In this document: positions 25,073-45,459 of the stretch, piece by piece
Position numbering within the stretch: the stretch's first letter is position 1
Layout of the letters: every line of letters starts with the position of its first letter
From: Halarcobacter mediterraneus
Lineage (GTDB): Bacteria; Campylobacterota; Campylobacteria; Campylobacterales; Arcobacteraceae
NCBI RefSeq assembly: GCF_004116625.1
Contig: NZ_NXIE01000006.1
Location: 62,001-126,000, forward strand
DNA length: 64,000 bases
Direction of reading: 5' to 3'
Notes under the pieces: model-generated
The model's database searches: none
Seen by the model: only the letters and a program-made list of their open reading frames with translations
What the model was told of the DNA's origin: nothing
Translations under genes and position numbers: made by a program

Positions 25073-25112
25073 GCGACCGTGGTGGAATTGGTAGACACGC
25101 TATCTTGAGGGG
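25073..25112 (+). pseudogene. 5' half of host tRNA-Leu(GAG), attL
   Basis: These 40 bases are the acceptor 5' strand (GCGACCG), D arm and anticodon stem/loop up to CTTGAGGGG, then the sequence becomes unrelated. The missing 3' half lies at 45406-45459, whose CGGTCGC acceptor strand pairs perfectly with GCGACCG. Joined at the core, the two make an 85-base tRNA-Leu with anticodon GAG. The att core is 25104-25112. Confidence 0.9.
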
Positions 25113-25144
25113 ACTTTTGAGATTGTAGTGTTGAATTTAAATAT

Positions 25145-25230
25145 GCGAATGTGGTGGAACGGTAGACACGTTAGCTTGAGGGGCTAATGCCAGTACTGGT
25201 GTGAGGGTTCAAATCCCTCCATTCGCACCA
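25145..25230 (+). tRNA. tRNA-Leu(GAG), complete, element-borne
   Basis: A full 86-base class II tRNA. The acceptor stem is GCGAATG/CATTCGC with encoded ACCA, the anticodon stem-loop is TTAGC-TTGAGGG-GCTAA with anticodon GAG, followed by a long variable arm and a T arm with GGTTCAAATCC. It has the same anticodon as the split host gene but a different acceptor stem, so it is not the reconstituted host copy. It lies just inside the element, 32 bases after the att core. Confidence 0.93.
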
Positions 25231-25378
25231 TTTTATGGTATATATTTAAACTAAACTATTTCTTCTTATATATAAGGAGTTGTAATTACTGCCAGTGATT
25301 TTATATAGAAAACTTCTAACAATTTAAAATAAAATCTAAATTTCCAATTGTCATAATGTATTGATTTCGTTAACTTTA

Positions 25379-25440
25379 TTGCACACTTTACTGCACAGTT
25401 TTAAAAAGTTTCACTAAGTTTGTAATTTTTTACTGCACAC
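25379..25440 (+). repeat. left-end TGCACA repeats, candidate integrase arm sites
   Basis: Three direct copies of a TTGCACA or CTGCACA motif occur at 25379-25386, 25390-25398 and 25431-25440. The same motif recurs twice at the right end (45347-45355 and 45358-45366). Repeats at both ends of an integrated element, close to att, are the usual layout of arm-type sites for tyrosine recombinases. The rest of 25231-25493 holds no gene that I can see. Confidence 0.55.
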
Positions 25441-25493
25441 TCATTTAACTAAAATTTATAACAAACCTTATAAAACGTCAAATTGTCATATAT

Positions 25494-26927
25494 CTATTTT
25501 AAAACTTCTATAGGAGATATAATTACTTCAGTATTAAATAAATTTTCTTTATAACTAAAACTATCAAGGAGATTATCGATATCAATTCTTTCAATATTAA
25601 TTACTAAATCATTGAAATTATTAATGTTTATATTAGACTTTTGAACATAAAGAATTATTTTTTTGATTTTTTGCATATCTTCATTTTTTGCAAAAAACAT
25701 ATCTTTATTAAATAGCAAAGAATATACTAAGACTTGTCTAATATCATCAGATTTTTTTAATACGTTTTCTTTAAACTTATATTTTGCATCAATAATATGA
25801 AAATGATTCTCTTCCTTAATCATAAAATCAGGATATTGATTAATTAATTTTGTTTTACCTTCTTCTAATAAAAAATTACTATTATTAATATTTTTATCTA
25901 TGCTTCCATCTGACTTTACTATTTTTTGTTCACTTTCATTTCCAATATATAATAACTTATCATAATGTGATAATTTCTTTTCTAGAACTTTCTCAAAGAC
26001 TTTTGTTAGGTCAACACTCAAAAACAATTGTACATCTTTCTTTAACTCTGTAAAGAATATTGAGTGTACTAAATTAAAAACTTTTTTATTTTTCTTAATT
26101 TCAATGTTATTTTTATATTTTCTAAAAAACTTATCTAAAGTTTTTTTCGAAATATTATCACTTGAAATATTCTTATGTGTTGATATCTTTATTAATAGAT
26201 TATTGATTTTATTTAATATTTTCAATATTTCTTTATATTCATCTCGTGCATTTTCTTCAAATATATCTAGTCTTTTTTTCTTTAAAAATTTTAAGCTTGA
26301 ATATATAAATTTAATTAGATCTTTTTGAAATGGGGCTTTAATAAATTGATAGTTTTTCAAAGGATTTTCTTCAATTATATTAAGTTCAAATATTTCTTCA
26401 CCAATAATTTTATCACTACATATAATTTGGTTCTTATAGTTTCTTTTATAATTTAACAATGTCCCATATATTTTATTTAATTTTTTTACATAAAATTCTG
26501 CTTCTAATTGTAAAAAACTATTTCCTTTGAAATTTTCAAATAAATCAATAACTTTTTGATTTGATGAATAACTAGAATATAGTTTAAAAAGCTTAATTAA
26601 AAGTTCTTCTATTTTTTTAATTCTTTCTTCTTTATCAGTTATTCCATTAAAATCTATATCTATATCTTTTGGAATAATAAATAAATAGAAATAGTAAACT
26701 TCATCTTTATAGTTAATATCATCAATATATGTAGATATGCTGTCTATATAGTTAGTCTGTCTTTCTAATATATTTCTACTAAATAAATTATTATCTAAAA
26801 TTTTTCGTATTGAAGATGCCGCATTTTGAGGAAATTTCTCTAGTTCATCATAAATATGTTCTATCTTATCTTCAAAATTTTGAAATACTAAATATAATTT
26901 ATTTTCACTAGCATGAGATATAATCAT
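25494..26927 (-). CDS. McrC-like nuclease subunit (LlaJI.R2-like)
   Basis: A 477-residue protein with a helical N-terminal region and a C-terminal PD-(D/E)xK nuclease domain. The catalytic pattern is YPDFMIKEENHFHIIDAKYK near residues 355-375, giving D and D-x-K, followed by a helix with DDIRQVLVYSLLF. This is the McrC layout. In McrBC and LlaJI systems this subunit cuts DNA when driven by the GTP-hydrolysing partner, encoded directly upstream 15 bases away. It is the last gene of the restriction operon. Confidence 0.82.
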   Translation of the reverse strand: MIISHASENKLYLVFQNFEDKIEHIYDELEKFPQNAASSIRKILDNNLFSRNILERQTNYIDSISTYIDDINYKDEVYYFYLFIIPKDIDIDFNGITDKEERIKKIEELLIKLFKLYSSYSSNQKVIDLFENFKGNSFLQLEAEFYVKKLNKIYGTLLNYKRNYKNQIICSDKIIGEEIFELNIIEENPLKNYQFIKAPFQKDLIKFIYSSLKFLKKKRLDIFEENARDEYKEILKILNKINNLLIKISTHKNISSDNISKKTLDKFFRKYKNNIEIKKNKKVFNLVHSIFFTELKKDVQLFLSVDLTKVFEKVLEKKLSHYDKLLYIGNESEQKIVKSDGSIDKNINNSNFLLEEGKTKLINQYPDFMIKEENHFHIIDAKYKFKENVLKKSDDIRQVLVYSLLFNKDMFFAKNEDMQKIKKIILYVQKSNININNFNDLVINIERIDIDNLLDSFSYKENLFNTEVIISPIEVLK

Positions 26928-26942
26928 TTAATTTCTTAATAA

Positions 26943-28691
26943 TTATAGATCATCTTCATAAATATTAAATTTATGAAGAAGTCTAAAGTTTTTCTCACTA
27001 GAATCAATATCTGACAACTCTTTAAGGTTTTCTTTAATCCAAGTGTTATTTTTTACTCTACACATTAAATCCCATCCTAACCTATTGATTTCACTATTTT
27101 TATTATTAAATTTTAAAGAATTTTTAATCATTCCAAAAAAGAATTTTATTGTTTCTTTCTGTTCTCTTAAATTATCAATTATATCTCCATTACTGTTAAC
27201 AATTTTCCATTGTCCAAAGCAATATTTTTCATAGTCAAAAATTTTATTTTCTTCCAAAATATCTTTAAAATGTTGATTTAGTTCTTTACAACAAATAGCA
27301 AAATCATTTCCCTCAATATTCTTATCAAATGTATCTATTGGATCTTTATAAGCTATATTGGCTCTATCTTCCCAATCTGCAAATATATTTAAACTGTATT
27401 CATTAAAATTTGCAGCACCTAATAAATAAAAATTCTTTGGATACACTAACTTCAATGAATTTCCTGAAATTCTATTCGTAATTGGAACAATAGGTATATC
27501 TTTGCAATGTTCATCCATAAAAGTATTCCATTCTTTTATGAAGTCATTTGCACTGTCAAAGTATTCAGTAAAAATCTCATTTCCTTCATCTACTTCTTTT
27601 ACAACTCTTTTTTGTTGAGATTTAAATAAAGGTGTATATTCTGAAAGTAATGATGAAATATCTTGATTGTGAAAGTCATCAAGAAAAACAACGTGATCAA
27701 TTTTTGGATTTACAATAGCAGACATTAGAAATTGAAGAAATTCTCCAAATTTAATTTCTTTTTTTATACTATCAATAGTAATTGCCAAGTCAGTATTTTG
27801 TAATCCTTTATATTCATTTCCAATACCACCTGAAACTGGAACTTTTAAATATTTATAATCAATATGATTTGTTCCAGTTTTGAAAATTTGTTTTTCCTCA
27901 AATTTGTAACTTTTACCAGTATTAGGTTGTCCAATTATAAATTCAATATTATTGATTTTACTATCTACTTTAACTTCTTCTTTTGGATTAATTTTATTTA
28001 AAAATGATTTAAATTTATTTCCATGACCACTTAAATTTTCTTGATTAGATTCTTCCTCTACAGAAGTATTTTCTACTGATTTATCATCTAAAAAATTAAT
28101 GTACATATTTAAAGTTTGTAAAATCTCACCTGAGTAACTGCCTTTTCTATCCCATTCATAATATCTACCTCCAGATGAAAGTTCTGTTCTAATATTATCA
28201 AGAACATTTAGATCGCTAATTTCAAAAATACTAATAGGATTATCTTCATCAATCTTAATAGGCAATATTTCATCTAAGTACTTTATTCTTGTAGAAATTT
28301 TTTTAGTTCCAAGAGTTAAAGACTCAATATACATGCCAAATCGTTCTCTAATATCCTTTTTATCATTTTCAGAAACTTCTTCACCAAAAACCATTTTTAA
28401 TTGTTCTTCACTTATAAGGGCTACTTCATTAGCTTTTTTTGTTTTATAATATAAAGTATAAGGAATATCTATAGTTTTATTCAAGTCTTCTTTCTCATCT
28501 AATTTAATTGACTTGCCATTATTAGTAATTAAAAATTTAAATCTAATATTGAATAACTCATCAGAATTGTCATCAGTATAAACATATAATATATCTTTAT
28601 CTTCTATACTATGATTCTTATATAACTCTTTTTGTAACTCTTCAATTAAAATTTCTTCTTCTTTTCTATTTTTTACTAACCATGTATTCAT
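26943..28691 (-). CDS. McrB-like AAA+ GTPase subunit (LlaJI.R1-like)
   Basis: A 582-residue protein. About 230 N-terminal residues precede an AAA+ domain with Walker A GQPNTGKSY (about 254-262) and Walker B HVVFLDDFHNQDISSLLSEY, closely patterned on McrB. The McrB NTAD-type guanine motif is changed to ANFNEYS (family MNTADRS), so nucleotide preference may differ. It would translocate on DNA and activate the McrC-like nuclease. Its start overlaps the stop of the 204-residue gene as TAATG. Confidence 0.8.
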   Translation of the reverse strand: MNTWLVKNRKEEEILIEELQKELYKNHSIEDKDILYVYTDDNSDELFNIRFKFLITNNGKSIKLDEKEDLNKTIDIPYTLYYKTKKANEVALISEEQLKMVFGEEVSENDKKDIRERFGMYIESLTLGTKKISTRIKYLDEILPIKIDEDNPISIFEISDLNVLDNIRTELSSGGRYYEWDRKGSYSGEILQTLNMYINFLDDKSVENTSVEEESNQENLSGHGNKFKSFLNKINPKEEVKVDSKINNIEFIIGQPNTGKSYKFEEKQIFKTGTNHIDYKYLKVPVSGGIGNEYKGLQNTDLAITIDSIKKEIKFGEFLQFLMSAIVNPKIDHVVFLDDFHNQDISSLLSEYTPLFKSQQKRVVKEVDEGNEIFTEYFDSANDFIKEWNTFMDEHCKDIPIVPITNRISGNSLKLVYPKNFYLLGAANFNEYSLNIFADWEDRANIAYKDPIDTFDKNIEGNDFAICCKELNQHFKDILEENKIFDYEKYCFGQWKIVNSNGDIIDNLREQKETIKFFFGMIKNSLKFNNKNSEINRLGWDLMCRVKNNTWIKENLKELSDIDSSEKNFRLLHKFNIYEDDL

Positions 28692-29305
28692 TATAATATT
28701 TCCTCTAATTCATTAAACTCTTCAACTTTATCAATATGAAACGGAATGCCTAAATATTTTCCACCATTTCCATTATATTCCCAAACAGTAAAATCTTTAA
28801 CTTCATTACTAAACTTTAATTCAGAATCACTTTTATATACATCAAATTTATATAAAAAGTTTTCTGTGTTATTAGTAATACTTTCAGATGTATTTTTATT
28901 TGGATTTTCTATCAATAACCTATATTTATTAATTTCAGTATTGTGTCTTTCAAGTAAATATTTAAAATACCTATCACTTTTTATAAAAAAAGAATAATTA
29001 TTTGAGCCATCAATTAAAATTGTCAAAGTAACGATATCCCCTGGCTGCATATTTGTTCTTATTATATATTTTCCCAAATTTTTTAACCAAAATTCAGGTT
29101 GCTTATGTTGTTGTTTTAAATCTACTTCAAAACTTCCCAAAATATAATCGACTATCTCTATTTTAACAGTATCATAAGAGTGAGTTTTCTTTAAATCATA
29201 AAATTCTTTAAAAATAGGGAATCTATAAACATTGATATATTTGTCTTTCCCAGCATATCCAGTAAGTTGTCTTGTAGCAATTATTTTATATTCATATTTT
29301 TTCAT
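28691..29305 (-). CDS. unknown protein of the restriction operon
   Basis: A 204-residue protein with no family I recognise. The first 115 residues are beta-rich (YEYKIIATRQLTGYAG, then WLKNLGKYIIRTNMQPGDIVTLTILID); this could be a B3-like or other DNA-recognition domain, which is speculation. The C-terminal part ends in IPFHIDKVEEFNELEEIL. It overlaps the McrB-like gene and follows the methyltransferases, so it is probably part of the restriction machinery. LlaJI itself has no separate gene here, which makes it the odd member of the operon. Confidence 0.65.
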   Translation of the reverse strand: MKKYEYKIIATRQLTGYAGKDKYINVYRFPIFKEFYDLKKTHSYDTVKIEIVDYILGSFEVDLKQQHKQPEFWLKNLGKYIIRTNMQPGDIVTLTILIDGSNNYSFFIKSDRYFKYLLERHNTEINKYRLLIENPNKNTSESITNNTENFLYKFDVYKSDSELKFSNEVKDFTVWEYNGNGGKYLGIPFHIDKVEEFNELEEIL

Positions 29306-29364: not shown

Positions 29365-30852
29365 TTAAATATATTTTTTATAAACTTTTGCAAAAACTTG
29401 TCCCATTAGAGGTGGGACAGCATTACCTATTTGCATATAAGTTTTTAAGTAAGCTCCTAAAAATAAATAGTTATCAGGAAAAGATTGAACTCTTGCAGCT
29501 TCTCTTGGAGTTAAACTTCTTACTTGAGTAGGATGAATATGAGAATGACAATCCATCTTCATATGTGCAGTAATCGTACGTGAAGGTTCATTTTCAATTA
29601 ACTTAAAATATTTATCTTTAAATAAATGGTTTCTATGACTATAAGGCATTATATCTTTTATTGATTCACAAGTTGAGTCTGCACCTTGTTGTAATGTTTT
29701 ATAAATTAGAATATTGTTCTGATTTTGATATCTGGCTTTATGATTAAATGTATAATCAAATTCTTCATCATTATTTATTAATTTTATATAATCATTAGAT
29801 TTATTTTTATATTCATTAATGTCTATCTTTTTACCCGATATTTCACAATCAATTTCTGTTGTATTTTTAACAGTTGGACACTCTAAATTTTTAATATTTT
29901 CAAGAGCATCTTTTAAGACATATTTTGTTTTGTTTTTTATTTCTAATTCAATTTCATTCATTAAAATATCAGGTGTAATATTCTTAGAACTCATATATTC
30001 CTTACTCACACCAACATAAATTAATCTAATTCTTTTTTGAGGTACAGAAAAATCACTTGAATCATATAATTTATATTTTACTTCATAGTCAATCTTTTTA
30101 AAATCTTCTACAACTTCATCAGCAACTTTTAACATACCTCTAACATTTTCCATTAGTATGAACTTAGGTCTTATTTTTTCTACAGCTTTAACATAATATT
30201 TATATAAAACATTTCTTGGGTCATCAATTATTCTTTGCTGATTTGCACTACTAAAAGATTGACAAGGAGGTCCTCCAATTATTACATCTACATCAGACAC
30301 TACATGCTTTTCAATATTATCTACAATTTCTTTTATATCAGCACTCAAAATTTTTTCTGAATTTAAATCTGGGTGATTATACTTATAAGTTTCAATAGCA
30401 CAAGGTTCTATATCATTTGCTAATTCTATTTGATAACCCTCTTTTACAAACCCCCAACTAAAACCACCTGCACCACAAAATAAATCTATTATTTTTGGTT
30501 TATTACTTTCAACTCTTTTATCTTGTAGTTCTTTTCGATATGAGTTATAAAATTTATTTAATATATAATTTGTTTTCTTTTTATTTTTTATATAGAAACT
30601 TAATACTTTTAATAAATCTCCATATTCACTTTTTAAAATCTTTTTCAATAATGGTAAATCATCTTCAATTTTTAATATTCCAATTAAAGCTAATTCTTTT
30701 AAAACACCTTTTTTATCTATTTCTTGTTTATCTAAATCTATTTTATTTTTTTTACAAAACTTTATTATCAGTTGATTTATAATATTCACTTTTTCAATAA
30801 AAAACTTTTTATCATTTGAATCTACTAAATCATTTATATTTCTAAATATCAT
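29365..30852 (-). CDS. C5-cytosine DNA methyltransferase (second of pair)
   Basis: A 495-residue m5C methyltransferase. An N-terminal extension of about 125 helical residues precedes motif I (IDLFCGAGGFSWGF), motif IV GGPPCQSFSS with the catalytic Cys, motif VI MENVRG, motif VIII PQKRIRLIYVG and motif X QIGNAVPP. It methylates cytosine in double-stranded DNA. It starts three bases after the other C5 methyltransferase ends. Two such enzymes with McrB and McrC-like partners match the LlaJI layout, where each methylase modifies one strand of an asymmetric site. Confidence 0.93.
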   Translation of the reverse strand: MIFRNINDLVDSNDKKFFIEKVNIINQLIIKFCKKNKIDLDKQEIDKKGVLKELALIGILKIEDDLPLLKKILKSEYGDLLKVLSFYIKNKKKTNYILNKFYNSYRKELQDKRVESNKPKIIDLFCGAGGFSWGFVKEGYQIELANDIEPCAIETYKYNHPDLNSEKILSADIKEIVDNIEKHVVSDVDVIIGGPPCQSFSSANQQRIIDDPRNVLYKYYVKAVEKIRPKFILMENVRGMLKVADEVVEDFKKIDYEVKYKLYDSSDFSVPQKRIRLIYVGVSKEYMSSKNITPDILMNEIELEIKNKTKYVLKDALENIKNLECPTVKNTTEIDCEISGKKIDINEYKNKSNDYIKLINNDEEFDYTFNHKARYQNQNNILIYKTLQQGADSTCESIKDIMPYSHRNHLFKDKYFKLIENEPSRTITAHMKMDCHSHIHPTQVRSLTPREAARVQSFPDNYLFLGAYLKTYMQIGNAVPPLMGQVFAKVYKKYI

Positions 30853-30855
30853 ATT

Positions 30856-32034
30856 CTAATTTTTCTCACTTAAAAATTTTTTCAATACTTTTGCAATTTG
30901 TTTAGCAAATAAAGGTGGGACAGCATTACCAATCTGTTTATATTGTTGTGTTTTAGAACAAGGGAAAACAAAATTATCTGGGAAAGATTGAAGTCTTGCA
31001 GCTTCTCTTGGTGTTAATGTTCTTTCTTGAGAATGATCTGGGTGAATAAATTGATTACCATCTTTATACAAATGTGCAATAATAGTTTTTGATGGTTTAT
31101 CAAAAAATTGAACAACATAACTATTGTTAAATAATCTTTTTTTAGGATGAATTAAATGCGCTTTATTTTCATATAATTCTTCTAAAGTCCATTTATTTTT
31201 ACTCATATGTTTGTAACGTTCTTTATCTAAACTATTATGGTTTCTTGCCACATGATGATGTAAATAATCATAATTCTCAGGTCTAATTTGTTCCAAATAC
31301 TTTGATACTTTTTTAGGTCTAAATTTCACTAAATCTTTACCCTCTCCTGGTAATAAACTAGGTAAATCAGAAATTGCTTCTTCTACTGTTACTTTCTCTA
31401 TTTTCTTTGAAACTTCATTCAATTCATTATATACATCATTTACATCAATATTTAAATCTCTTCTAACACCAATTAATATAACTCTTTTCCTTTCTTGAGG
31501 AACACCAAAGTCAACTGCATTTAAAAGAATTTTATCTTTGTCCTCTATTATTTTATAATTCTTTTTCATATCTTCATAAATTTTATGAATTATCAATTCA
31601 CCATTTACTTTAGTGGATAATATTCCACTGACATTTTCAAAAACGAAAAATTTTGGTTTATAGTGATTTAATACTTTAATATAATTCTCATATAAATAGT
31701 TTCTTGGGTCTTTTTTCATTCCATGGGGGTCTCTAGCTTTACCTTGCGATGAGAAAGATTGACAAGGAGGTCCACCAATTATTACATCAACATCATTGTC
31801 TTGAACACAATCATCAATTATTTTTAATATATTTTCACTAGTAATATCTGTAGGTTTAACTTTTTCAATTTCATTTTCATTATATTTATAAAATCTCATT
31901 CTCTCTTTTAAAGTATCACAAGCATATTTATCAAACTCTACGTGAGATAGAGCTTTATATCCCTCTTGATAAAATCCTTCAGCAAAACCTCCAGCACCTG
32001 CAAATAAATCTATAAATGTATATTTCTTTTTCAT
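30856..32034 (-). CDS. C5-cytosine DNA methyltransferase (first of pair)
   Basis: An m5C methyltransferase of about 392 residues with motif I FIDLFAGAGGFAEGF right at the N-terminus, motif IV GGPPCQSFSSQGKARDP, motif VI FENVSG, PQERKRVILIGVR and QIGNAVPP. The ATG at 32034 (MKKKYTFIDLF) is preferred over one 17 codons upstream, because family members begin close to motif I. It is the first gene of the restriction-modification operon and probably protects one strand of the recognition site. Confidence 0.93.
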   Translation of the reverse strand: MKKKYTFIDLFAGAGGFAEGFYQEGYKALSHVEFDKYACDTLKERMRFYKYNENEIEKVKPTDITSENILKIIDDCVQDNDVDVIIGGPPCQSFSSQGKARDPHGMKKDPRNYLYENYIKVLNHYKPKFFVFENVSGILSTKVNGELIIHKIYEDMKKNYKIIEDKDKILLNAVDFGVPQERKRVILIGVRRDLNIDVNDVYNELNEVSKKIEKVTVEEAISDLPSLLPGEGKDLVKFRPKKVSKYLEQIRPENYDYLHHHVARNHNSLDKERYKHMSKNKWTLEELYENKAHLIHPKKRLFNNSYVVQFFDKPSKTIIAHLYKDGNQFIHPDHSQERTLTPREAARLQSFPDNFVFPCSKTQQYKQIGNAVPPLFAKQIAKVLKKFLSEKN

Positions 32035-32089
32035 ATAACCAATCAATTTTTTATTGGAATTATATCGCAAAGTTTCTGGAAACACAATT

Positions 32090-33580
32090 TCATTGCAAAT
32101 TGTAATTCTTATTTTTTAAATAATCTTCCTTACTAAAAACACCCTCCTCAAAAGGATAATCCTTAACAGTCTCCTCAATATACTTTTTCATATCATTTTC
32201 AAACTTTTCATTTTTCTTTTTTGAATTGATTTTTATATCTTTTATAAAGTTATCAGGAACATATAAAGTTCTTACATTATAGTATTCACTTTCATTTTTT
32301 ATTATCATTTCACCAACTCCAAATTCTTTTACATTTATCCCCATTTCTTCCAATGGCTCTTTATCAATAACCGAATGAATACCCTCATCACTTTCTGTTT
32401 TATGCAAAATCCTAAAAATAGTATTATTTTTAATTGAGTTAGTTATTCCACTACCAACAGAAGTGAAAATCTGTGTCGCATAAAACAATTTAAACCCACT
32501 ACTTCTTGAAGTTCTAAACAAACTTTCAATAATTTCTTTTATTTTATCTTGTATAAACTTTTCTTCTTTTGTATTTGCTTTATAATCTAATATTTCAGCA
32601 ATTTCATCAAAGAAGACATAAATATAATAATTAGTAAATTTCTTCTTATTATGGGCTTTTAAGAACTTCTGTCTTGCTTTATTCATTATGTCTAATCTAA
32701 CTAATTTTTTATAGAGTTCTTTTCTATTATCTGTATAGGTAAAGATTTTATTAGTTTTAAATCTCTTTTCTAAATTTTCGTAAGGTTGGCTTTCAACTCC
32801 ACCCTTAAAGTCTATAAAATTCAATTCATAAACAGTATCAAAGTTATAAAAAATAGAAAATAATACATGATTTAGGGTATTTGATTTACCACCTCCCGAA
32901 GTTCCAAGTAGTGCAAAAGAGTGAGGGAGAGAAGAAAGACTTATATATTTAGCAACTCTTTTTTCTTTAAATCCACCTTCAAATCCTAAAAATAGATAAC
33001 CTTTTTTCATATAGTCTTTTGGAGATAATCCTTTAATCTCTTCAATACTAGGAGTAGGATTTTTAAATCTAACCATAACCCCTAATTTGTTATATCTCTT
33101 AATCTCACAACTACCCATTTTATTTCTTTGTGTCATATTCTCAAATTGTTTTAAAAACTTGTCATATTCCATTGTTTCCCCTGCAACAACTTCATATATA
33201 TACCCATCTTTTAGTTTTTTCTTTAAATAGTAATTCTCTAATCCAAAGTTTGCTAATTTTCTTTGCTCTATCTTTTTTGAAATAATTGTTTTAATATATA
33301 GAAAAGTAAAAATAAACCCTAAACTAATATGTAAGATATAGGTTTTAACTACTTCTATAAATCCACTAACTTTTGAAATAAAATATATATTTTTAATCTC
33401 ACTAATTATTGAAGAAAATAAGATTTTAAAATTTAGTTCTTGTAAATAATAGATTTTAAAAATAGCAAGGGAAAAAATAAAAGAAGAGATTAAAATAAAT
33501 AAAATAACTCCTACAACATAGGCACCGTTTAAGTTGCCAAATTTATCATAAGAGCCAAATTCATATTTTACTTTTGTCAT
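32090..33580 (-). CDS. FtsK/TraB-like DNA translocase
   Basis: A 496-residue protein with two N-terminal membrane helices (about 21-42 and 80-98), then an FtsK/SpoIIIE motor. Walker A is GTSGGGKS (226-233), Walker B is VFFDEIAEIL, and the later ATQIFTSVGSGITNSIKNN block is typical of FtsK-type pumps. No KOPS-binding gamma domain is seen. This layout matches coupling proteins of Gram-positive conjugation (TcpA) and the TraB pumps of actinomycete elements more than VirD4. It probably moves element DNA between cells or across the membrane. Confidence 0.83.
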   Translation of the reverse strand: MTKVKYEFGSYDKFGNLNGAYVVGVILFILISSFIFSLAIFKIYYLQELNFKILFSSIISEIKNIYFISKVSGFIEVVKTYILHISLGFIFTFLYIKTIISKKIEQRKLANFGLENYYLKKKLKDGYIYEVVAGETMEYDKFLKQFENMTQRNKMGSCEIKRYNKLGVMVRFKNPTPSIEEIKGLSPKDYMKKGYLFLGFEGGFKEKRVAKYISLSSLPHSFALLGTSGGGKSNTLNHVLFSIFYNFDTVYELNFIDFKGGVESQPYENLEKRFKTNKIFTYTDNRKELYKKLVRLDIMNKARQKFLKAHNKKKFTNYYIYVFFDEIAEILDYKANTKEEKFIQDKIKEIIESLFRTSRSSGFKLFYATQIFTSVGSGITNSIKNNTIFRILHKTESDEGIHSVIDKEPLEEMGINVKEFGVGEMIIKNESEYYNVRTLYVPDNFIKDIKINSKKKNEKFENDMKKYIEETVKDYPFEEGVFSKEDYLKNKNYNLQ

Positions 33581-35779: not shown

Positions 35780-35798
35780 TTATTCTCTCCTTTTAGAA

Positions 35799-37092: not shown

Positions 37093-37199
37093 ACTCTGTT
37101 ATAACAGATTAGATTATATTGCATTAAAACTTAAATTTAGTCTGTAATTACAGATTGAAAAGATTTTTTATTTAAATTAATATCACTCTGTAATAAAAG
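37093..37199. promoter_or_regulatory. triple operator of the XRE repressor
   Basis: Two perfect dyads, CTGTTATAACAG (37096-37107) and CTGTAATTACAG (37142-37153), and a third related copy starting CACTCTGTAATAAAAG (37184-37199). All share (C/G)TCTGT(T/A)AT. They fill the 130-base gap between the divergent XRE gene and the exported-protein operon, a phage-like switch arrangement. Confidence 0.7.
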
Positions 37200-37210: not shown

Positions 37211-37474
37211 ATGGAACAATTTAATGATTTTGAAGACTTTTCAGAAGAGCAAAAAGAACAATTTTTTAAAAATGTTGGTAAGAATGTATCAAGAATAAGA
37301 AAAAAACATAAATTATCCCAGTTAAAACTTAGCCAACTAATAGGACATAAATCAACTTCTTTGGTAAGTGGAGCAGAAATTTATTATAATAAACAACATT
37401 TTTCATTAGAACATTTAGCTTTAATTGCTTTTGTATTAAATGAAGATATAACTGAATTTTTCAAATCTATATAA
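37211..37474 (+). CDS. XRE-family repressor
   Basis: An 87-residue DNA-binding protein with a helix-turn-helix (NVSRIRKKHKLSQLKLSQLIGHKS, about residues 24-50) and a short C-terminal helix. The length is that of a minimal Cro/C-type regulator. It is divergent from the exported-protein operon and its 3' end overlaps the convergent rep gene by eight bases. It probably represses itself and the operon through the dyads directly upstream. Confidence 0.85.
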   Translation: MEQFNDFEDFSEEQKEQFFKNVGKNVSRIRKKHKLSQLKLSQLIGHKSTSLVSGAEIYYNKQHFSLEHLALIAFVLNEDITEFFKSI

Positions 37475-38870
37475 ACTGATACTTATTAAAATATCCCTCT
37501 TCTATCTTTTCAATAGAAAAAGGATTTATTTTTAACTTCTCAAATTCATAATTATATATTGGTATTTGTTCATTATGTTTTTTATTATAAATAAGCCATT
37601 TTTTGAAATATACTTTTTGAATAGCTTTTGAGTTATACTCTTTTATATAATTATCAATATTTTTTAAAATATTTCTTTTGAAAGAATTTATATTTTTTTT
37701 ATTCTTTAGCTTTTCAAACTCTTCTTTTATTGCTTGAAAATTTATTGATATTCTTTTAACTTTCTCTTCTTCAAATCTGAAATAACCTTTTAATATAATT
37801 TTCTCTATTTGGTAATAAATTGGAATATTACCTCTTTTAAAATATTTTATTATCTTTGGTTTATATTGATTTAAAAACTTATAAACTATCTCTATTTTTT
37901 CTTGATTAGTATGTCTAAAATTAGAGCTTGTGAAAAATCTTGTTTTTGAAAAATATCTTTTATATTGATTATAAAAAAGATTCTCAGATTTTGTTGTTTT
38001 TAAAAGATATTTATTTAAATAAGTTGAAGCTTTTGCATTTTTTAATATTTCATATGTTGTCTCTTTTAATTTAAAATTATCTATTGTCATAGAATAAACC
38101 TCTTCTACTATATTTAAAAAGGTTTTATCTATATAAAATAATGAATGAAGATGTCCATCTAAACTCTTATGAGGTTCTAGGATTTTTATAAAATCAATGT
38201 TTATTACTTCTTTATTAGTTATGTTATTGCTTTTACAATATCTTCTAATTTTATATTTTAATGTGTGATAGAAATATCTATGAATTTCATTTAATAGTTT
38301 TAAACCCTTTTCAACATTTTCTTCAAATTTATCCTTTGAATTATAGGTATTTGTTTCAAAACCATTTTTATTATATTTATGAAATTGCTTGTTTGGCAGA
38401 GTAAAGGTTATAAATACTTTTTCTTTTTGTTTATTTACATAATCTAAATACATAACCTTAGCTATCTTTTTATAGCTATATAATTTATCTTTATTTGATA
38501 GAAAATCTCCTTTTTTATACTCTTTAAATTTTAATTCTACTTCATTTATATCGTTTGATTTAACATCATAATAAAAGTCATTAGCATATTTAAACATACC
38601 ATTTTGAAGACTATAATCTTTAACTTTATTAGTTTTAATATTTTTTGATTTTAGATTATTTTTTACAAAGTATTCAAGTAATTTTGAAGATTTTACAATA
38701 TAAGAGTATTCAAGTTTATTTTTTAATTCTTTAATAGTATCAGCATAAGAAAGATTTTTAATACCTAAATTATTTAGATTATATTGTAAGCTATTTAATT
38801 GTTTATCACTTAAATTATATCTTGAAAAATTCAATAAACTAACATCTACTTTTGAAAAATTTACACTCAA
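37467..38870 (-). CDS. HUH rolling-circle replication initiator
   Basis: A 467-residue endonuclease of the HUH type. Motif I is KVFITFTLPN (151-160). Motif II is LDGHLHSLFY with the metal-binding H240-x-H242. Motif III is ASTYLNKYLL with Tyr284 and Tyr288, the two-tyrosine pattern of phage gpA-type initiators. It would nick one strand at an origin and start rolling-circle replication of the excised element, and could double as relaxase. Three strong hairpins lie just upstream of its start. Confidence 0.78.
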   Translation of the reverse strand: MSVNFSKVDVSLLNFSRYNLSDKQLNSLQYNLNNLGIKNLSYADTIKELKNKLEYSYIVKSSKLLEYFVKNNLKSKNIKTNKVKDYSLQNGMFKYANDFYYDVKSNDINEVELKFKEYKKGDFLSNKDKLYSYKKIAKVMYLDYVNKQKEKVFITFTLPNKQFHKYNKNGFETNTYNSKDKFEENVEKGLKLLNEIHRYFYHTLKYKIRRYCKSNNITNKEVINIDFIKILEPHKSLDGHLHSLFYIDKTFLNIVEEVYSMTIDNFKLKETTYEILKNAKASTYLNKYLLKTTKSENLFYNQYKRYFSKTRFFTSSNFRHTNQEKIEIVYKFLNQYKPKIIKYFKRGNIPIYYQIEKIILKGYFRFEEEKVKRISINFQAIKEEFEKLKNKKNINSFKRNILKNIDNYIKEYNSKAIQKVYFKKWLIYNKKHNEQIPIYNYEFEKLKINPFSIEKIEEGYFNKYQFI

Positions 38871-39218: not shown

Positions 39219-40622
39219 TTAAAAATTGAATTTTATCTCACTATCATTATTTTTTATATCTTCCATTTTACCACTTTTATCAATTACAATATCTTTATTA
39301 TTCTCTTTTATTTCATTAGTTTCTTCTTTAATAGAAGTTAAATCTGATGGTTCAATTGGTTTCTTAGGTGGTGTATCTTCTTTACATAAATCTATATTAT
39401 TCTTTTTAGCAAATATTTTCATTCGCTCAACTATATCTTCATTTAATTCTGTTGGCTCCAATATTTTTACATATTCAATAGTATGAAAAATAGTTGATAT
39501 TATATATTCTTTATCATCTTCTGCAAAAATATAGCATTTATTAGGTAATGTATCTAAACCGTACTCTTTTGAAAAGTCTTGCTTTTCTTCTTCTGTAACG
39601 TATAACTTCATATTTGATAATGGTTTAACTTGGAAATATTCAACTATATTTGTATCAATTTCTAATAACACTGTTTTAGATGGTTGATTCTTTTTATATG
39701 ATTCAACAGAAAGCATTGAGTAACTAGGATTAAATAAATATTTTTGATTAGTGGAAGATTCTTCTACTTCATAATTACTATAAGTTTTATCTTTTAATGT
39801 AATTCTTTCAATTTTATCAAAGTCAATTTCATGCTTTAAATCATCTTCATCTACTTCATATCTTAAAACTTTATATTGATTATGTCCCTCTTTCTTATAT
39901 ATAATCTGCATTGGATAAATTGAAAATTCTTCATCCTTATTATATATTTTTATTGTTAAATCATCTAATTCATTTATCGCATCAATAATTGTAGCTTCTA
40001 TAAAATTTAGTTTATTATGATAGATTGAAGGTTTTATTATATATTTAATAACTTCATCAATATTCTCAAAATATTTAGATACAGTAGAATCATAATGTTT
40101 TCCAAGATATCCTAATAAAGAAGGGGTCAGAAATTTCAATACATTGTTATCTATAATCTCATATCTACTATCTTTAAACCAGTTTTTTGAAAACAATGCA
40201 TAATTTGGCTGTTTATGGTTTAATAGTCTCAAGCATTTTAAAAGACGTAAAGCTTCTTTTGAGGTCGAGTCATTCTTATTTTCTTTTATTTTAAAAAACA
40301 GTTTTTCAACTAATTCCTCTTGAGAAACTTCATTATAATATTGATGAATTTTGAATTTAGAAGAATCTACAAATACATTTAAATCATTATTTATACACAT
40401 AGCTTCAAGTATTGCGTTAGCTAAAATATAAGACTTATTAGTCTCCTTTGGTTTGTATTTAAAGCAGGTTTTTTCTAAAGACTCTATATATTCTTCAACT
40501 TTCTGTCTTAATTTTTCTTCTTGAAGTTCAGATAAATTAAATTTATCACTTAATCTTTCAATTTCATCTTCAACTTCATTGAAGTCAATACTTCTTATTT
40601 CTTTTTCTAGTTCTTTTTTCAT
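39219..40622 (-). CDS. WYL-domain-like regulator
   Basis: A 467-residue protein. Residues about 210-310 resemble a WYL domain: IYPMQIIYKKEGHNQYKVLRY followed by FDKIERITLKDKTY. Then comes a WCX-like strand pattern (KTVLLEIDTNIVEYFQVKPL) and a low-complexity acidic tail. The N-terminus is coiled-coil (about 1-55); I see no clear helix-turn-helix. WYL proteins are ligand-sensing regulators common near phage-defence genes. It is divergent from the methyltransferase operon across a 297-base regulatory gap. Confidence 0.5.
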   Translation of the reverse strand: MKKELEKEIRSIDFNEVEDEIERLSDKFNLSELQEEKLRQKVEEYIESLEKTCFKYKPKETNKSYILANAILEAMCINNDLNVFVDSSKFKIHQYYNEVSQEELVEKLFFKIKENKNDSTSKEALRLLKCLRLLNHKQPNYALFSKNWFKDSRYEIIDNNVLKFLTPSLLGYLGKHYDSTVSKYFENIDEVIKYIIKPSIYHNKLNFIEATIIDAINELDDLTIKIYNKDEEFSIYPMQIIYKKEGHNQYKVLRYEVDEDDLKHEIDFDKIERITLKDKTYSNYEVEESSTNQKYLFNPSYSMLSVESYKKNQPSKTVLLEIDTNIVEYFQVKPLSNMKLYVTEEEKQDFSKEYGLDTLPNKCYIFAEDDKEYIISTIFHTIEYVKILEPTELNEDIVERMKIFAKKNNIDLCKEDTPPKKPIEPSDLTSIKEETNEIKENNKDIVIDKSGKMEDIKNNDSEIKFNF

Positions 40623-40919: not shown

Positions 40920-42146
40920 ATGAATAAAACAATTGAAATATTATTCAATGATTTGGTATTTGAGTTTTCAGACTCAAATGAGAATTATAATGTTGTTTAT
41001 AAACTAATTTCTCAATATCACATAAGTGATTCTATTTGGAAAAACAAAATCACTAAGAGCATAAAAAAAGCTTTAAAACTTGATTGTAAAAAAACTGCTT
41101 TGAGAGAATTAAAAATTCTTTTGAATAAATGTTTAGAAAAGAATTTTGAAACAAAAGCGATTTCTGCATTTCCTTACCCTGGTGGTAAGAATAAAATGAA
41201 GAAAGAACTAAACTATGCCCTTGAGGTTTTAAATGAAGATAAAACTGAAATAGGTGAAAAATTTGAAATATATGCCGATATATTTTTTGGTGCAGGTGGC
41301 TCTTTAATCTCAATGTCTGACAAATTGTCGGAAATTGGAATTAAAAAAGTGATAGTTAATGAATTAAATAAGACGATAATAAATATTCATAAACTAATTA
41401 AAGAGAAACCAAATCAACTAATAGATGCATTTTCTAATTTGATAAAAACTAAAGTTGTTTCCAAATTTGGAAGAATTTTTCTTGAAAAAGAGGAATATGA
41501 AATATTGGCTTCTGAATTGAAAGAAGAAGTTCATAATTTAGAAAAAAATAATGAAAGAGGTGTTGAAACTGCTATTAGATTCATTCTATTACAATGTATT
41601 CAATATTCAAGTAATTACACTCCTAAAGTAACTTTTGAAGTTTCAAACTTTAGTAATAAAATTTATTCTTCAGAAAAAATTGTTGAAGTAATCTCTTCGT
41701 TCTCAAATAGAATAAAAAAAATACATTCTATTTACAATAAGTTCGACATTGAATTCAAATGTGAAGATGCATGGGAAGTATTACAACAATATAAAAAAAA
41801 TAAAAATATCTTATTTAACATTGATATTATTTATGTTGTTGAAGATAACACTCCTATTGAAAACTTTTCTTCTAATTATTTTGAAGAACTACAATCTAAA
41901 GATATTCCATTAGCAAGAACAAATTATGGTGTTAAAAAATTTGACTCTATTAAATACATTAAAGAGTTGAAATATATTAACTGTATTTATAACAATAATG
42001 CACACCCTGCTATTGAATATTATAGGAGAAAATTTGGTTTAGAAAAACTTATTTTCACACGTGTCGAAACTTCTTCTTCGATTGAAAAAGGAGCATATAG
42101 ACATACGGCAAACGAATACATTGTATTTGGTTTAAAAAATAACTAA
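40920..42146 (+). CDS. D12-class adenine methyltransferase-like protein, altered motif IV
   Basis: A 408-residue protein with the Dam/D12 pattern: FPYPGGKNKM (84-93), YADIFFGAGGSLISM (118-132) and INELNKTIINIHKLI-like acceptor (about 146-160). The catalytic motif expected as DPPY reads DIIY (302-305), with both prolines lost. It may be a divergent active enzyme or a methyltransferase fold used for binding. It has an 80-residue N-terminal extension. The downstream gene is also a methyltransferase, suggesting a paired modification or partition module. Confidence 0.6.
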   Translation: MNKTIEILFNDLVFEFSDSNENYNVVYKLISQYHISDSIWKNKITKSIKKALKLDCKKTALRELKILLNKCLEKNFETKAISAFPYPGGKNKMKKELNYALEVLNEDKTEIGEKFEIYADIFFGAGGSLISMSDKLSEIGIKKVIVNELNKTIINIHKLIKEKPNQLIDAFSNLIKTKVVSKFGRIFLEKEEYEILASELKEEVHNLEKNNERGVETAIRFILLQCIQYSSNYTPKVTFEVSNFSNKIYSSEKIVEVISSFSNRIKKIHSIYNKFDIEFKCEDAWEVLQQYKKNKNILFNIDIIYVVEDNTPIENFSSNYFEELQSKDIPLARTNYGVKKFDSIKYIKELKYINCIYNNNAHPAIEYYRRKFGLEKLIFTRVETSSSIEKGAYRHTANEYIVFGLKNN

Positions 42147-42164
42147 TAATTGAAAGGAATTATT

Positions 42165-43856
42165 ATGAATAACATTAAGACAATAAAAATTGAACAAGTA
42201 AAAATTGGTGAGAGAGTAACTTCTTTAGATACAAAAACTGTGGAACTAATAAAAAAATCTATTAATGAAAATGGACAATATAATCCTATTTCATTAAATT
42301 TGATTGATGGTGAATATGTCCTTATTTCTGGTTATCATAGATTGATAGCTCATAAAGAATTAGGTCTTACAGAAATTGAAGCTTCTGTTTATACAGATTT
42401 ATCAAAAGAAAAAGTTGAGATAATTGAACTAGAAGAAAATATTATCAGAAAACATTTTGATCACTTTGAATTAGGAAAACTAATTGAAAAGTATGATAAG
42501 TTATGTTCAAACACTTCAAAAACAAAAAAGGCAAAAGCTAAAAATGAAGAGATTAAAGACAAAACTGGTGTACAACCAAGAGAAATTCAAAGGTCAAGAA
42601 AACTTTGGAATGAGTTATCTAAAAATAAATCTTTAATTGAACATTTAGAAACAAAAACAGAACCTTTAGTTAATGAGGATTTGAAAAAGCTTGCTTCTTT
42701 TTCAAAAGAAAATCAAGAGATAATTATAAATCTAACCAAAGATTTACTTAATAAAAAAACTTTAAAAAATGCAATTCTTAAAGTAGAACATACAATTGAA
42801 GAGAAGATTGAACAGTCAAGGAAACAAAATCTAAGAAAACTTACTTCTAACGTATGTTTTAAGGGTGATTCACTTGAAATCTTAAAGTCAATTCCTAAAA
42901 ATCACTTTTCACATTGTATTACTGACATTCCTTATGGTATTTCAGTAAAAAAAGAAATGGGGAAAAATACAACTTCTTGTAAAAGTGAAGAATGGGATAA
43001 AGATATACCTCCTTTAGAGTTATTTAATGAGATATACAGAACACTAAAGCCTGGTGGTTTTTTTGTAACTACATTTTCTCCAAGAAGCGATTTAATTTTA
43101 AATCTTCATGACAAACTTAAAGAAGTAGGTTTTAATATTAAGTTTAATCAACTTTATTGGGTTCATGATCCAAATCTTCCAAGAAGTTATTGGATGGAAG
43201 ATAAACAAAAAAGTAAAGTTAAAGAAGATGAAGATAATGTTGATAAATCTTCTAACTTTAAAGGTGAAAAGACACCTCATATAGCATCATCAGTTGAGCC
43301 AATTATTATTGTACAAAAACCTTTTGAAGATTTAATTTATGAGCATGCTACAAAAGCTCTTAATGATGACACTTTATCAAAAGGGACAATTAATATAGAG
43401 GAAACTAAGGTTAATAACAAACAAGTTCAACAACTCATTTCTATTGAAGAAATAAATGAGTTTATTGGAAAAAGGTTTTCAATTAAAAATTGGAGCCAAC
43501 AAATATTTGGTAATATGATTTTTACTTCTAAACCTAACGAAGAAAAAAATTATAATTACAAGGGTGAAGAAATTAAATCAAAGAATGTAAATTCTAAAAA
43601 GGCAAATGACCATGCAAGTGTAAAGCCAGTTGCACTATTTGCGTATTTACTAAAACTTTTTAACACAGATAAGGATGGAATAATATTAGAACCTTTTGCT
43701 GGTTCAGGTACAACTCTTATTTCATCAAAACTTCTCAAAATGAATTATTTTGGGATAGAACAAGATGATGGATATTATGAAATCATTAAACAGAGACTTA
43801 TTCAAGATAAATCATATACAAATGATGATTTAAAATCTAACTTTTTTAACAACTAG
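42165..43856 (+). CDS. ParB-DNA methyltransferase fusion
   Basis: A protein of about 563 residues. The N-terminal ParB/Srx-like domain (about 1-100) contains GEYVLISGYHRLIAHKELG and ENIIRKHF. A helical linker leads to an N4/N6 methyltransferase of beta order: CITDIPYGIS (DPPY variant, 254-257) first, then ILEPFAGSGTTLISSKLL near the C-terminus. The ATG at 42165 is chosen because AAAGGA lies just before it. Such fusions occur on phages and plasmids. It may modify element DNA or target sites through the ParB part. Confidence 0.85.
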   Translation: MNNIKTIKIEQVKIGERVTSLDTKTVELIKKSINENGQYNPISLNLIDGEYVLISGYHRLIAHKELGLTEIEASVYTDLSKEKVEIIELEENIIRKHFDHFELGKLIEKYDKLCSNTSKTKKAKAKNEEIKDKTGVQPREIQRSRKLWNELSKNKSLIEHLETKTEPLVNEDLKKLASFSKENQEIIINLTKDLLNKKTLKNAILKVEHTIEEKIEQSRKQNLRKLTSNVCFKGDSLEILKSIPKNHFSHCITDIPYGISVKKEMGKNTTSCKSEEWDKDIPPLELFNEIYRTLKPGGFFVTTFSPRSDLILNLHDKLKEVGFNIKFNQLYWVHDPNLPRSYWMEDKQKSKVKEDEDNVDKSSNFKGEKTPHIASSVEPIIIVQKPFEDLIYEHATKALNDDTLSKGTINIEETKVNNKQVQQLISIEEINEFIGKRFSIKNWSQQIFGNMIFTSKPNEEKNYNYKGEEIKSKNVNSKKANDHASVKPVALFAYLLKLFNTDKDGIILEPFAGSGTTLISSKLLKMNYFGIEQDDGYYEIIKQRLIQDKSYTNDDLKSNFFNN

Positions 43857-43858
43857 TT

Positions 43859-43884
43859 TAGTAGTGGGATATTTCCCACTACTA
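43859..43884 (+). terminator. hairpin after the ParB-methyltransferase gene
   Basis: A perfect 11-base stem (43859-43869 with 43874-43884, TAGTAGTGGGA arms) and a 4-base loop, two bases after the stop. Only a short T-poor tail follows, so termination may be partial. It separates the modification genes from the excisionase and integrase. Confidence 0.55.
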
Positions 43885-43919
43885 CTTATTATCATTCTCT
43901 ATATAAAGGAGATATTACA

Positions 43920-44177
43920 ATGGAAGATAATTTTAAACAATCAGAATATCTAGCTTTAAAATCATTGGTATTAGAACTAAAAGAGATGATTAGTCTTATG
44001 ATACCTCAAAAAGCAAGTGTTAGTTACTTATCTGAAACTACTGGAAAAAGTAGACAATCAATAAGACAATTTCTTATAAATAATTTTGAACCTGAAGTTG
44101 ATTATTGGGTTGATGGTGGTAAAATGTTTGCATCACAAAAGGCAGTAATTACTATTTTGAATAGGAGTTCAAAATGA
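43920..44177 (+). CDS. excisionase-like HTH protein
   Basis: An 85-residue protein with a helix-turn-helix at about residues 33-60 (VSYLSETTGKSRQSIRQFLINN) and a wing-like FASQKAVITIL end, resembling HTH_17/excisionase proteins. Its stop overlaps the integrase start. A recombination directionality factor role is inferred from that coupling. Confidence 0.65.
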   Translation: MEDNFKQSEYLALKSLVLELKEMISLMIPQKASVSYLSETTGKSRQSIRQFLINNFEPEVDYWVDGGKMFASQKAVITILNRSSK

Positions 44178-45343
44178 GTAATATTAGAATAAAAGGTGAT
44201 GGGGTCTTTAAAATTAGAAAAAATGTTATCTATGTTCATGGTTCTATAAATGGCAAATTTCATAGAAAATCTACAGGTAAAAAATTAACTCCTGCAACTA
44301 AACAATGGATGAAAAAAGCAAATCCATTAGATGTGTTATCAAAGTTATTAGATACAGATAGAAATGAAGTCACTACAAATAACTTTGAAAAATTTGGATA
44401 TATGATACTAGAAGTCACAAGTTCGAGAAGACAACAAGCTAGTCAAAATGAACTTGAAGGACTTTTTAAAAATAGAGTTCTACCAAGTTTTAAAGGTTTA
44501 AAAATAGAGGACATAAAGCCTCTTGATATTGTTAATTTACTTGAGAAACAAAAAAAAGAAGTTTGTAACGATAGAGTTAAAAGAATAAAGAATCTTTTAA
44601 ACATAATTTTTGATTATGCCTATGATAATGAGTTAATCGAAAGAAATCCAGTACAAACTAGAAGTGTCAAAGCTGTTGATTTATCTTATAATCCTAAAAA
44701 AACTGAGGCATACTCTACTGAAGAAATAAGAGTTATACTAAAAAATGCAAAAGGTTGGTTCAAAATATTTTTAGAACTATCTTTCAAGTTAGGATTAAGA
44801 ACGGGGGAATGTATGGCTTTAAAATGGAATGATATAAATTTTGAAACTGAAAAATTATCACTTCAAAGAAGTATTACAAGAGGTGTTATTACAGAACAGA
44901 ATGAAAATTCAACAAGTAATAAAAACCATTTTAGAACTATTCAACTATTGCCAGATTTAGTAAAGTTATTAAAAATTTACTATGAAGTTAGACCGTCAAA
45001 TGAATGGCTATTTATCAATAAAGATGGTAGATATTACAGAGAATCAAAAACTATAGTTGATTATCATTTAAAACCGTTACTAAAAAGCATAGGAGTGAAA
45101 TATAAAACTCTATATGCAACAAGAAGGTCATATGCATCTGTAATGAGTTTTGGAGGTGAAAACCTTGAAGATATCCAAAAAATTATGGGACATTCAAAAG
45201 GTTCAAGGATAACAGAAAAACATTATATCGACCCTAGAATACTAAAACTAGAACACGATAAATTAAATGCACAAAAACAACAAGAAATATTTAATATGAT
45301 GGTTGAAGTTGAGGATAAAGTTTCTCAATCAAAACCAGCATAG
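44174..45343 (+). CDS. tyrosine integrase
   Basis: A 389-residue phage-type integrase. An N-terminal arm-binding region (1-60) is followed by a SAM-like core-binding domain (about 65-165) and a catalytic domain: Arg in LGLRTGECMALKW, YATRRSYAS (the HxxR box with Tyr for His, a known variant), GHSKGS and the nucleophile in KHYIDP. It ends 62 bases before the right att core, the usual place for an integrase. It would recombine the CTTGAGGGG core in tRNA-Leu(GAG). Confidence 0.93.
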   Translation: MSNIRIKGDGVFKIRKNVIYVHGSINGKFHRKSTGKKLTPATKQWMKKANPLDVLSKLLDTDRNEVTTNNFEKFGYMILEVTSSRRQQASQNELEGLFKNRVLPSFKGLKIEDIKPLDIVNLLEKQKKEVCNDRVKRIKNLLNIIFDYAYDNELIERNPVQTRSVKAVDLSYNPKKTEAYSTEEIRVILKNAKGWFKIFLELSFKLGLRTGECMALKWNDINFETEKLSLQRSITRGVITEQNENSTSNKNHFRTIQLLPDLVKLLKIYYEVRPSNEWLFINKDGRYYRESKTIVDYHLKPLLKSIGVKYKTLYATRRSYASVMSFGGENLEDIQKIMGHSKGSRITEKHYIDPRILKLEHDKLNAQKQQEIFNMMVEVEDKVSQSKPA

Positions 45344-45346
45344 TCT

Positions 45347-45366
45347 ACTGCACACATATTGCACAG
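45347..45366 (+). repeat. right-end TGCACA repeats, candidate integrase arm sites
   Basis: Two copies, ACTGCACAC (45347-45355) and ATTGCACAG (45358-45366), match the three copies at the left end. They sit between the integrase stop and attR. Confidence 0.5.
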
Positions 45367-45405
45367 TAGTTGGTTGAGTTCCTATTTTAAGGGAAATACC
45401 TCCAC

Positions 45406-45459
45406 CTTGAGGGGGTAGTGCTTTCGGGTGTATGGGTTCAAATCCCATCGGTCGCACCA
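45406..45459 (+). pseudogene. 3' half of host tRNA-Leu(GAG), attR
   Basis: The att core (45406-45414) is followed by the 3' anticodon strand, variable arm, T arm (GGGTTCAAATCCC) and acceptor strand CGGTCGC with encoded ACCA. The 5' partner is at 25073-25112. The upstream 60 bases do not supply a D arm or acceptor strand, so this half cannot form a tRNA by itself. Confidence 0.9.

Follow-up and report, generated by a model that had tools for sequence, protein, structure and literature searches.

A putative integrative element with an FtsK/TcpA-type DNA pump that splits and replaces a leucine tRNA gene in an Arcobacter-like genome

Some integrative elements carry a DNA pump and no type IV secretion system (T4SS) of their own. 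Actinomycete integrative and conjugative elements (AICEs) were defined in Actinomycetales, according to the accessible text of PMC3218068, and the C-terminal helix-turn-helix (HTH) of their pump, TraB, reads 8-bp clt repeats (PMC5365140, accessible part). The same part of that source describes ICEth1, a tRNA-borne element of Thermus thermophilus, in which an FtsK-HerA ring pushes DNA and the competence system of the recipient pulls it, a process termed transjugation (PMC5365140). Here we describe an integrative element of about 20 kb that interrupts a leucine tRNA gene of Halarcobacter mediterraneus, an Arcobacter-like genome of 2.83 Mb (G000). It lies in a stretch of 64,000 nucleotides (NZ_NXIE01000006.1, positions 62,001 to 126,000), which we call the window. 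Judged from sequence, it belongs to a family of integrative mobile elements with four core genes, for an integrase, a rolling-circle initiator, a protein resembling single-stranded DNA-binding proteins (SSB-like) and a predicted FtsK/TcpA-type inner-membrane pump; the explanation that we propose below for how such elements work and spread stands evenly balanced.

Like AICEs of the pSAM2 type, the element has a tyrosine integrase (PF00589, 6e-18), a rolling-circle initiator, a single FtsK/SpoIIIE transfer protein (PF01580) and no T4SS. Unlike them, it resides in a two-membrane host outside Actinomycetales, its initiator is of the P2 gpA/filamentous-phage type, its pump leaves no room for the TraB C-terminal HTH, it has an extra SSB-like gene and its target tRNA is not restored. 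No RepSA, RepAM or Prim-Pol replication protein was matched at E ≤ 1 by Pfam, which was used here without the RepSA profile of the AICE study. With the TcpA-encoding integrative mobilizable elements (IMEs) of streptococci (classes 1-4 and 7), the element shares a compact set of integrase, initiator-type nuclease and TcpA-like pump, again with no T4SS, but it differs in its initiator family, in its Gram-negative-type hosts and in the lack of a link between its carriers and a T4SS. Of the relaxases in those IMEs, PF02486, PF01719 and PF02407 had no Pfam match at E ≤ 1, and PHA00330, a further type, is not in Pfam. As in ICEth1, a tRNA-integrated element with a recombinase, a ring pump of the FtsK-HerA family and restriction genes but no T4SS is found in a host with two membranes, which Thermus also has. 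In ICEth1, by contrast, the pump TdtA occurs with a NurA-like partner and the circle apparently does not replicate, whereas here the pump is nearer to TcpA and FtsK and an initiator is present. No NurA-like nuclease was matched among the element open reading frames (ORFs) scanned.

The sequence-only reading had called this an AICE-like element without VirB or other T4SS genes. Its account of the layout and of the missing T4SS held, with no T4SS family matched by Pfam at E ≤ 1 among 20 element ORFs. Membership of the AICEs did not, given the host and the lack of room for a TraB HTH. The term is apt for a possible mode of action: the element may work like an AICE or a TcpA-encoding IME, and we file it under neither. 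Those IMEs and ICEth1 appear at least as close to it as AICEs are, and we would call them equally close. Both precedents (PMC5357655 and PMC5365140, in their accessible parts) had been overlooked earlier, as had the tRNA replacement described below.

A split tRNA-Leu(GAG) gene and its replacement

The borders of the element are two 9-bp cores, CTTGAGGGG, at 25104-25112 and 45406-45414. Bases 25104 and 45414, named earlier as the limits of the element, are exactly the outermost bases of the left and right cores. The core, too short for a repeat search set at 20 nt or more, is the sole sequence common to both tRNA halves and lies in the anticodon loop. When 25073-25112 is joined to 45415-45459, ARAGORN recognizes an 85-nt tRNA-Leu(gag), the halves of which are 20.3 kb apart in the window. 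An intact counterpart, 99% identical, is present in another genome of the same genus (G068), and the left flank of the window's element matches DNA beside it. Because the flanks join to a tRNA that is intact in G068 and a second genus holds the element in full, the borders are not due to chance.

Insertion splits the native tRNA-Leu(GAG) in its anticodon loop and leaves the host copy unrestored. A complete tRNA-Leu(GAG), 78% identical to the disrupted host gene, lies just inside the left border (Table 1). It has no other near-full match across G000, in a survey that set aside other leucine anticodons. Transcription of the element-borne tRNA may start at the promoter of the disrupted gene.

A genome of another genus in the same family (G078) holds the whole element, in stretches of 15,768 bp at 98.8% identity and 4,635 bp at 99.8%. 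Apart from the tRNA halves, its flanks are unrelated to those of the window. The left end of this copy bears an extra 71-bp footprint consisting of the spacer and the first half of the tRNA that the element carries, rejoined at CTTGAGGGG. Most simply, one copy entered the tRNA of another and was then partially lost. The footprint therefore points to CTTGAGGGG as the crossover site and to the element's own tRNA as a usable target. Overall, the alignments indicate that the element destroyed a host tRNA-Leu(GAG), brought its own replacement, can target that replacement in turn and moved between genera recently.

This way of integrating recurs. Among 104 genomes of the family, eight loci have the 5′ half of a tRNA-Leu and, 11-54 nt further on, a complete tRNA-Leu(GAG) called by ARAGORN: the window, G078 (after the extra footprint), G077, G064, G012, G015, G101 and G060. 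A ninth, in G025, is interrupted by a contig end. The displaced 3′ half was found past the island in five (the window, G078, G077, G064 and G012), weakly so in G012 (E 0.004). The G012 island encodes an integrase 80% and a small HTH protein 60% identical to those of the window; it also has genes for a pump and an SSB-like protein, and its initiator is broken. In the G077 island, the integrase is shared at 42%, type I restriction-like genes are present, and the trio of initiator (Rep), SSB-like and FtsK genes is missing. This island (L168) and that of G064 (L169), which likewise has type I restriction-like genes and no trio, occupy the same tRNA-Leu(GAG) replacement site.

A comparable exchange is known as tRNA-dependent lysogeny. 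As described by Guerrero-Bustamante and Hatfull, a core of about 10 bp lies in a tRNA that is not restored, and a tRNA of the same isotype is brought in; cores are 8-17 bp in actinobacteriophages such as Fionnbharth and Gaia (PMC10865867, accessible text). That text cites one Lactobacillus prophage and says that the spread beyond actinobacteriophages needs study (PMC10865867). The window's element likewise has a tyrosine integrase, an attachment site in a tRNA gene, a short core (9 bp), an unrestored target and a tRNA of the same isotype. Unlike those phages, it is not a phage, its host belongs to Campylobacterota, and its core is in the anticodon loop of tRNA-Leu(GAG). The tRNA swap itself has a precedent; the type of carrier is new. 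It would extend tRNA-dependent integration from actinophages and one Lactobacillus prophage to another phylum and to an element that is not a phage.

A four-gene set that recurs in Campylobacterota

The motor of the predicted pump scores 25.4 bits with FtsK_SpoIIIE (PF01580), whose cut-off is 24. An AlphaFold2 model (predicted local distance difference test, pLDDT, 75) has two long N-terminal helices, residues 19-54 and 61-110. In a profile search of the PDB, TcpA of pCW3 came first (2.9e-25) and FtsK next (5e-21). Comparison of folds gave the same order, with Z 25.3 for TcpA (root-mean-square deviation 2.3, 249 residues aligned) and 23.9 for FtsK (2.8, 251 aligned); HerA- and VirB4-type chains scored Z of about 15-19. 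Profile and model thus place the pump nearest TcpA, with FtsK close behind in both sequence and fold. The motor match ends near residue 456 of 496, and the roughly 40 residues left form two short helices only, so the pump has no room for a TraB-type C-terminal HTH. The sequence-only reading had named a Zot-type pump as a finding that would count against it; a Pfam scan of the pump found no Zot (PF05707) at E ≤ 1, and the protein is of the FtsK/TcpA kind. Named close relatives of the pump come from Sulfurospirillum, Sulfurimonas and metagenome-assembled genomes of Campylobacterales.

The initiator had no noteworthy Pfam match. Among 12 relatives, an H-x-H (residues 240 and 242) and a YxxKY (284-288) are invariant, motifs that we take to mark two-tyrosine HUH initiators. 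The structural model is poor (pLDDT 49) and its comparisons are of low confidence; HUH nucleases are nearest (adeno-associated virus Rep, Z 7.3), and Foldseek returned nothing under E 0.05. For one relative of the initiator, P2 gpA and the initiators of filamentous phages gave matches at 23-30%. The layout first read from the letters, a tyrosine integrase, an HUH initiator and a two-helix pump, is therefore borne out by Pfam matches, invariant motifs and the pump model, and it is conserved across the order. The suggested single-stranded DNA-binding protein keeps a conserved place in the order Rep-SSB-FtsK; its function is less secure, as discussed below.

The pump and the initiator served as queries against 104 genomes of the family, and a profile of the initiator against 397 of the class; the regions recovered were then scanned. 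Rep, SSB-like, FtsK and tyrosine integrase genes occur together in 16 distinct Campylobacterota loci: the window, L045, L047, L048, L049, L087, L088, L090, L091, L092, L095, L128, L130, L131, L133 and L177. L040 is the window's element and L127 and L132 are the same records as L088 and L090, so these duplicates were not counted; L042, L056, L089, L093/L181 and L096 were left out as incomplete or differently built. On clustering, the Rep, SSB and FtsK families were each recovered in 15 of the 16 loci, the missing cases being a gene at a contig end, one lost to an overlapping call and one that is broken, with the pieces visible in a direct scan. An integrase is present in all 16, split over three groups (12, 2 and 2 loci). 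The next commonest families were a Cro-type HTH (4/16) and a small lipoprotein (3/16), none exceeding 4/16.

Eight loci adjoin a tRNA or transfer-messenger RNA gene, and in seven the 3′ end of that gene is repeated on the far side, giving elements of 5.8-10.2 kb; L092 has no far-side repeat of the adjacent tRNA gene. The repeats are 12-24 nt and exact, or 46 nt at 96%, those of L045 and L049 being short (12-13 nt) and weak (E 0.06 and 0.015). The smallest elements bounded in this way are about 6 kb, and L047 and L095 hold little beyond the core genes. L088, also bounded, comes from Sulfurospirillum cavolei.

Outside these genomes, a scan of a contig collection with one strict peptide pattern, which contributed named loci, found 12 loci, nine of them in Campylobacterota, a pattern too strict to measure absence outside the phylum. 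The remaining three, in Ghiorsea, Haloactinopolyspora and Anaerolineae, had no Rep, SSB or integrase match. IMG/VR held no relative by the window's pump, its initiator or the initiator profile, and one distant contig by the pump profile (24% over 159 residues). In PLSDB and INPHARED, the FtsK-like and gpA-like matches were all distant. A literature search, for which subscription papers were mostly beyond reach, found no such element described in Campylobacterota.

Two of the loci left out are differently built. L042 (G070:C85, 7441 bp) has a Rep 34% and a pump 42-44% identical to those of the window, separated by four genes for membrane or secreted proteins, on a contig without an integrase. 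At 2688-6728, L181 (G342) encodes a 1346-aa protein that begins, by eye, as a UvrD-type helicase and contains an HUH initiator domain, possibly a helicase-initiator fusion; a 566-aa two-helix FtsK-like protein is encoded 5 kb away.

Routes of transfer and competing explanations

In the mechanism that we propose, the integrase and the small HTH protein would excise a circle, which the initiator would nick and replicate by rolling circle, while the SSB-like protein would coat single strands. The pump would then drive DNA across the donor's inner membrane. The Cro/CI-type HTH protein would repress the envelope-SSB-pump operon through three operators, and through the replacement tRNA the host would depend on the element for survival or fitness, a simple addiction mechanism. 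No conserved gene encodes the outer step, so DNA would leave by a host or borrowed route. By analogy with ICEth1 of Thermus, donor-push and recipient-pull transfer is the likeliest such route and the model that we favour, though we hold it about as probable as its negation. A stronger version is tentative, and we think it more doubtful than not: a self-sufficient, T4SS-free, FtsK/TcpA-driven family, with a minimum of four genes and about 6 kb, would push DNA out of a two-membrane cell for uptake by the recipient, and one branch would destroy and replace an indispensable host tRNA. If the pump alone drives transfer, T4SS-free conjugation is not confined to actinomycetes and Thermus, and these elements would be among the smallest self-moving ones known, open to study in culturable Sulfurospirillum or Arcobacter relatives.

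Several points weigh against this proposal. Transfer, excision and pump activity are all predictions, and the SSB-like protein has no convincing match in Pfam or the PDB, even with a profile, so that its function is assigned by inference only. The near-tie between TcpA and FtsK in fold would allow a role in segregation. ComEC, which could serve recipient uptake, is present in 13 of 13 carriers (one below the cut-off); since 10 of 14 control genomes have it too, it does not discriminate. Lipoprotein or secreted genes, mostly of unrelated families, occur in seven of the eight elements bounded by repeats or cores (the window, L045, L047, L049, L087, L088, L091 and L095) and might form an outer part. 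Finally, a VirB-type cluster elsewhere in the window's own host makes hijacking possible. This cluster (L183, G000:C2:230000-249999) lies on another contig with a VirD4-like gene; VirB4 was identified by Pfam, the rest by eye.

The main rival explanation builds on that last point. The initiator would be a relaxase and the TcpA-like protein a coupling protein, and the element, as an IME, would exit through the T4SS of another element. Streptococcal IMEs with the same compact set of tyrosine integrase and rolling-circle-type relaxase encode TcpA in 83 of 118 cases (PMC5357655, accessible part), and the pump is nearest TcpA; the IME reading also draws on PMC5704250. However, VirB4 is no more frequent in carriers (3/12) than in genomes of the class (101/397) and is found in none of six carriers outside the window's family. 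According to the same text, moreover, TcpA partners FA-type T4SSs and is confined to Firmicutes (PMC5357655), and the Pfam relaxase families of the streptococcal IMEs are unmatched here. We consider exit by this means rather unlikely. A different use of the same genes, to copy and segregate the excised circle inside the cell while natural transformation or transduction spreads the element, would suit the second place of FtsK in the fold comparison, the ComEC of every carrier, and the distant FtsK-like genes on some double-stranded DNA phages and small plasmids. Yet the two-helix pump is kept in order with Rep and SSB despite varied integrases and cargo, which seems to fit export better than segregation of an integrated element, and we judge a purely intracellular role improbable.

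A relationship to filamentous phages is suggested by the initiator. A Zot gene (E ≤ 2.8e-8) lies within 6 kb of 48 of 81 class-wide initiator matches, counted from 83 rows of which two were second pieces of one frame. All 48 score 76.9 bits or less, whereas none of the 12 matches above 80 bits has Zot within 6 kb. In a tree of 52 sequences, including 40 of the class-wide initiator regions and with named rows all from Campylobacterota, 16 of 17 FtsK-linked initiators group with four others (support 98/92), the degenerate L177 alone falling outside, and all 20 Zot-linked initiators lie across that branch. Proximity and tree together therefore indicate that the elements and Campylobacterota inoviruses have a distant replication ancestry in common but are separate lineages. 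Like those inoviruses, which carry Rep and Zot, the elements have an HUH initiator, distantly related; unlike them, they have an FtsK/TcpA pump in place of Zot. The element could be a filamentous-phage relative or satellite, its pump in the role of Zot and its virions its own or those of a helper inovirus, and a Zot-Rep filamentous prophage does lie elsewhere in G000 (L123, G000:C1:372000-391000). The absence of Zot similarity in the pump and the supported split between the initiators speak against this, as do a convincing Zot in just two of 13 carriers (G000 and G131) and the clustering of proteins of at least 60 aa, in which the loci had no coat-like gene in common and no widely shared family besides integrase, Rep, SSB and FtsK. 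We regard a phage origin of this kind as very improbable.

Other genes and sites of the element

Returning to the window's element, its remaining genes are listed in Table 1. The three-gene set next to the element-borne tRNA had no significant match in Pfam or PADLOC. The operator-like motif of the window recurs in L049, where three CTGTWATWACAG palindromes spaced 45-46 bp apart again lie ahead of an HTH gene.

Table 1. Features of the element and its target gene (window positions)
Feature	Position	Strand	Remarks
5′ half of disrupted host tRNA-Leu(GAG), ending in left core CTTGAGGGG	25073..25112	+	100% over query 1-40 in family-genome comparison
Complete element-borne tRNA-Leu(GAG)	25145..25230	+	ARAGORN; starts 32 nt past left core
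Three-gene set (477, 582, 204 aa)	25494..29305	-	Walker-type ATPase and nuclease-like by eye; McrBC-like is a guess
Two 5-methylcytosine DNA methyltransferases	29365..32085	-	Pfam PF00145
FtsK/TcpA-type membrane DNA pump (predicted)	32090..33580	-	FtsK_SpoIIIE PF01580; profile and fold matches
Two small ORFs (63 and 67 aa)	33581..33962	-	Upstream of pump
Conserved small protein, SSB-like placement	34166..34726	-	Between Rep and FtsK; gene order Rep-SSB-FtsK
Four envelope-type genes	34889..37080	-	296 aa with signal peptide; 92 aa, two-helix membrane; 176 aa, lipoprotein (DUF4878); 144 aa with signal peptide
Three CTGTWATWACAG-like palindromic sites, probable operators (predicted)	37096..37199	.	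Spacing 46 bp; before HTH gene
Cro/CI-type HTH, probable repressor	37211..37474	+	Pfam match below cut-off; same family in L045, L047, L049
Rolling-circle initiator, HUH with YxxKY	37467..38870	-	Invariant motifs, model, matches of relatives
467-aa protein	39219..40622	-	Weak WYL match
D12-like methyltransferase and ParB-N/N6-N4 methyltransferase	40920..43856	+	
Small HTH-like protein, probable excision factor	43920..44177	+	No Pfam match; kept before integrase in L177 (60%) and L168 (42%)
Tyrosine integrase	44174..45343	+	Pfam PF00589, E 6e-18; 80% identical in L177
Right core CTTGAGGGG (45406-45414) and 3′ half of host tRNA-Leu(GAG)	45406..45459	+	CCA at 45459

Genes resembling CBASS (cyclic oligonucleotide-based antiphage signaling system), restriction or abortive-infection genes occur in members of the family, so defence cargo may be usual. 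Beside the trio of L092 (G132), at 4821-8688, a CBASS-like set was recognized by eye, with a nucleotidyltransferase, a patatin-like phospholipase and two more genes. The trio element of L048 is adjoined, at 14937-18803, by a tandem run of four or more lipoprotein genes, each of about 320 aa and all much alike. In a 1733-aa protein encoded in L046 (G009, 970-6171), an FtsK-type motor is fused to what look by eye like numerous ankyrin-like repeats.

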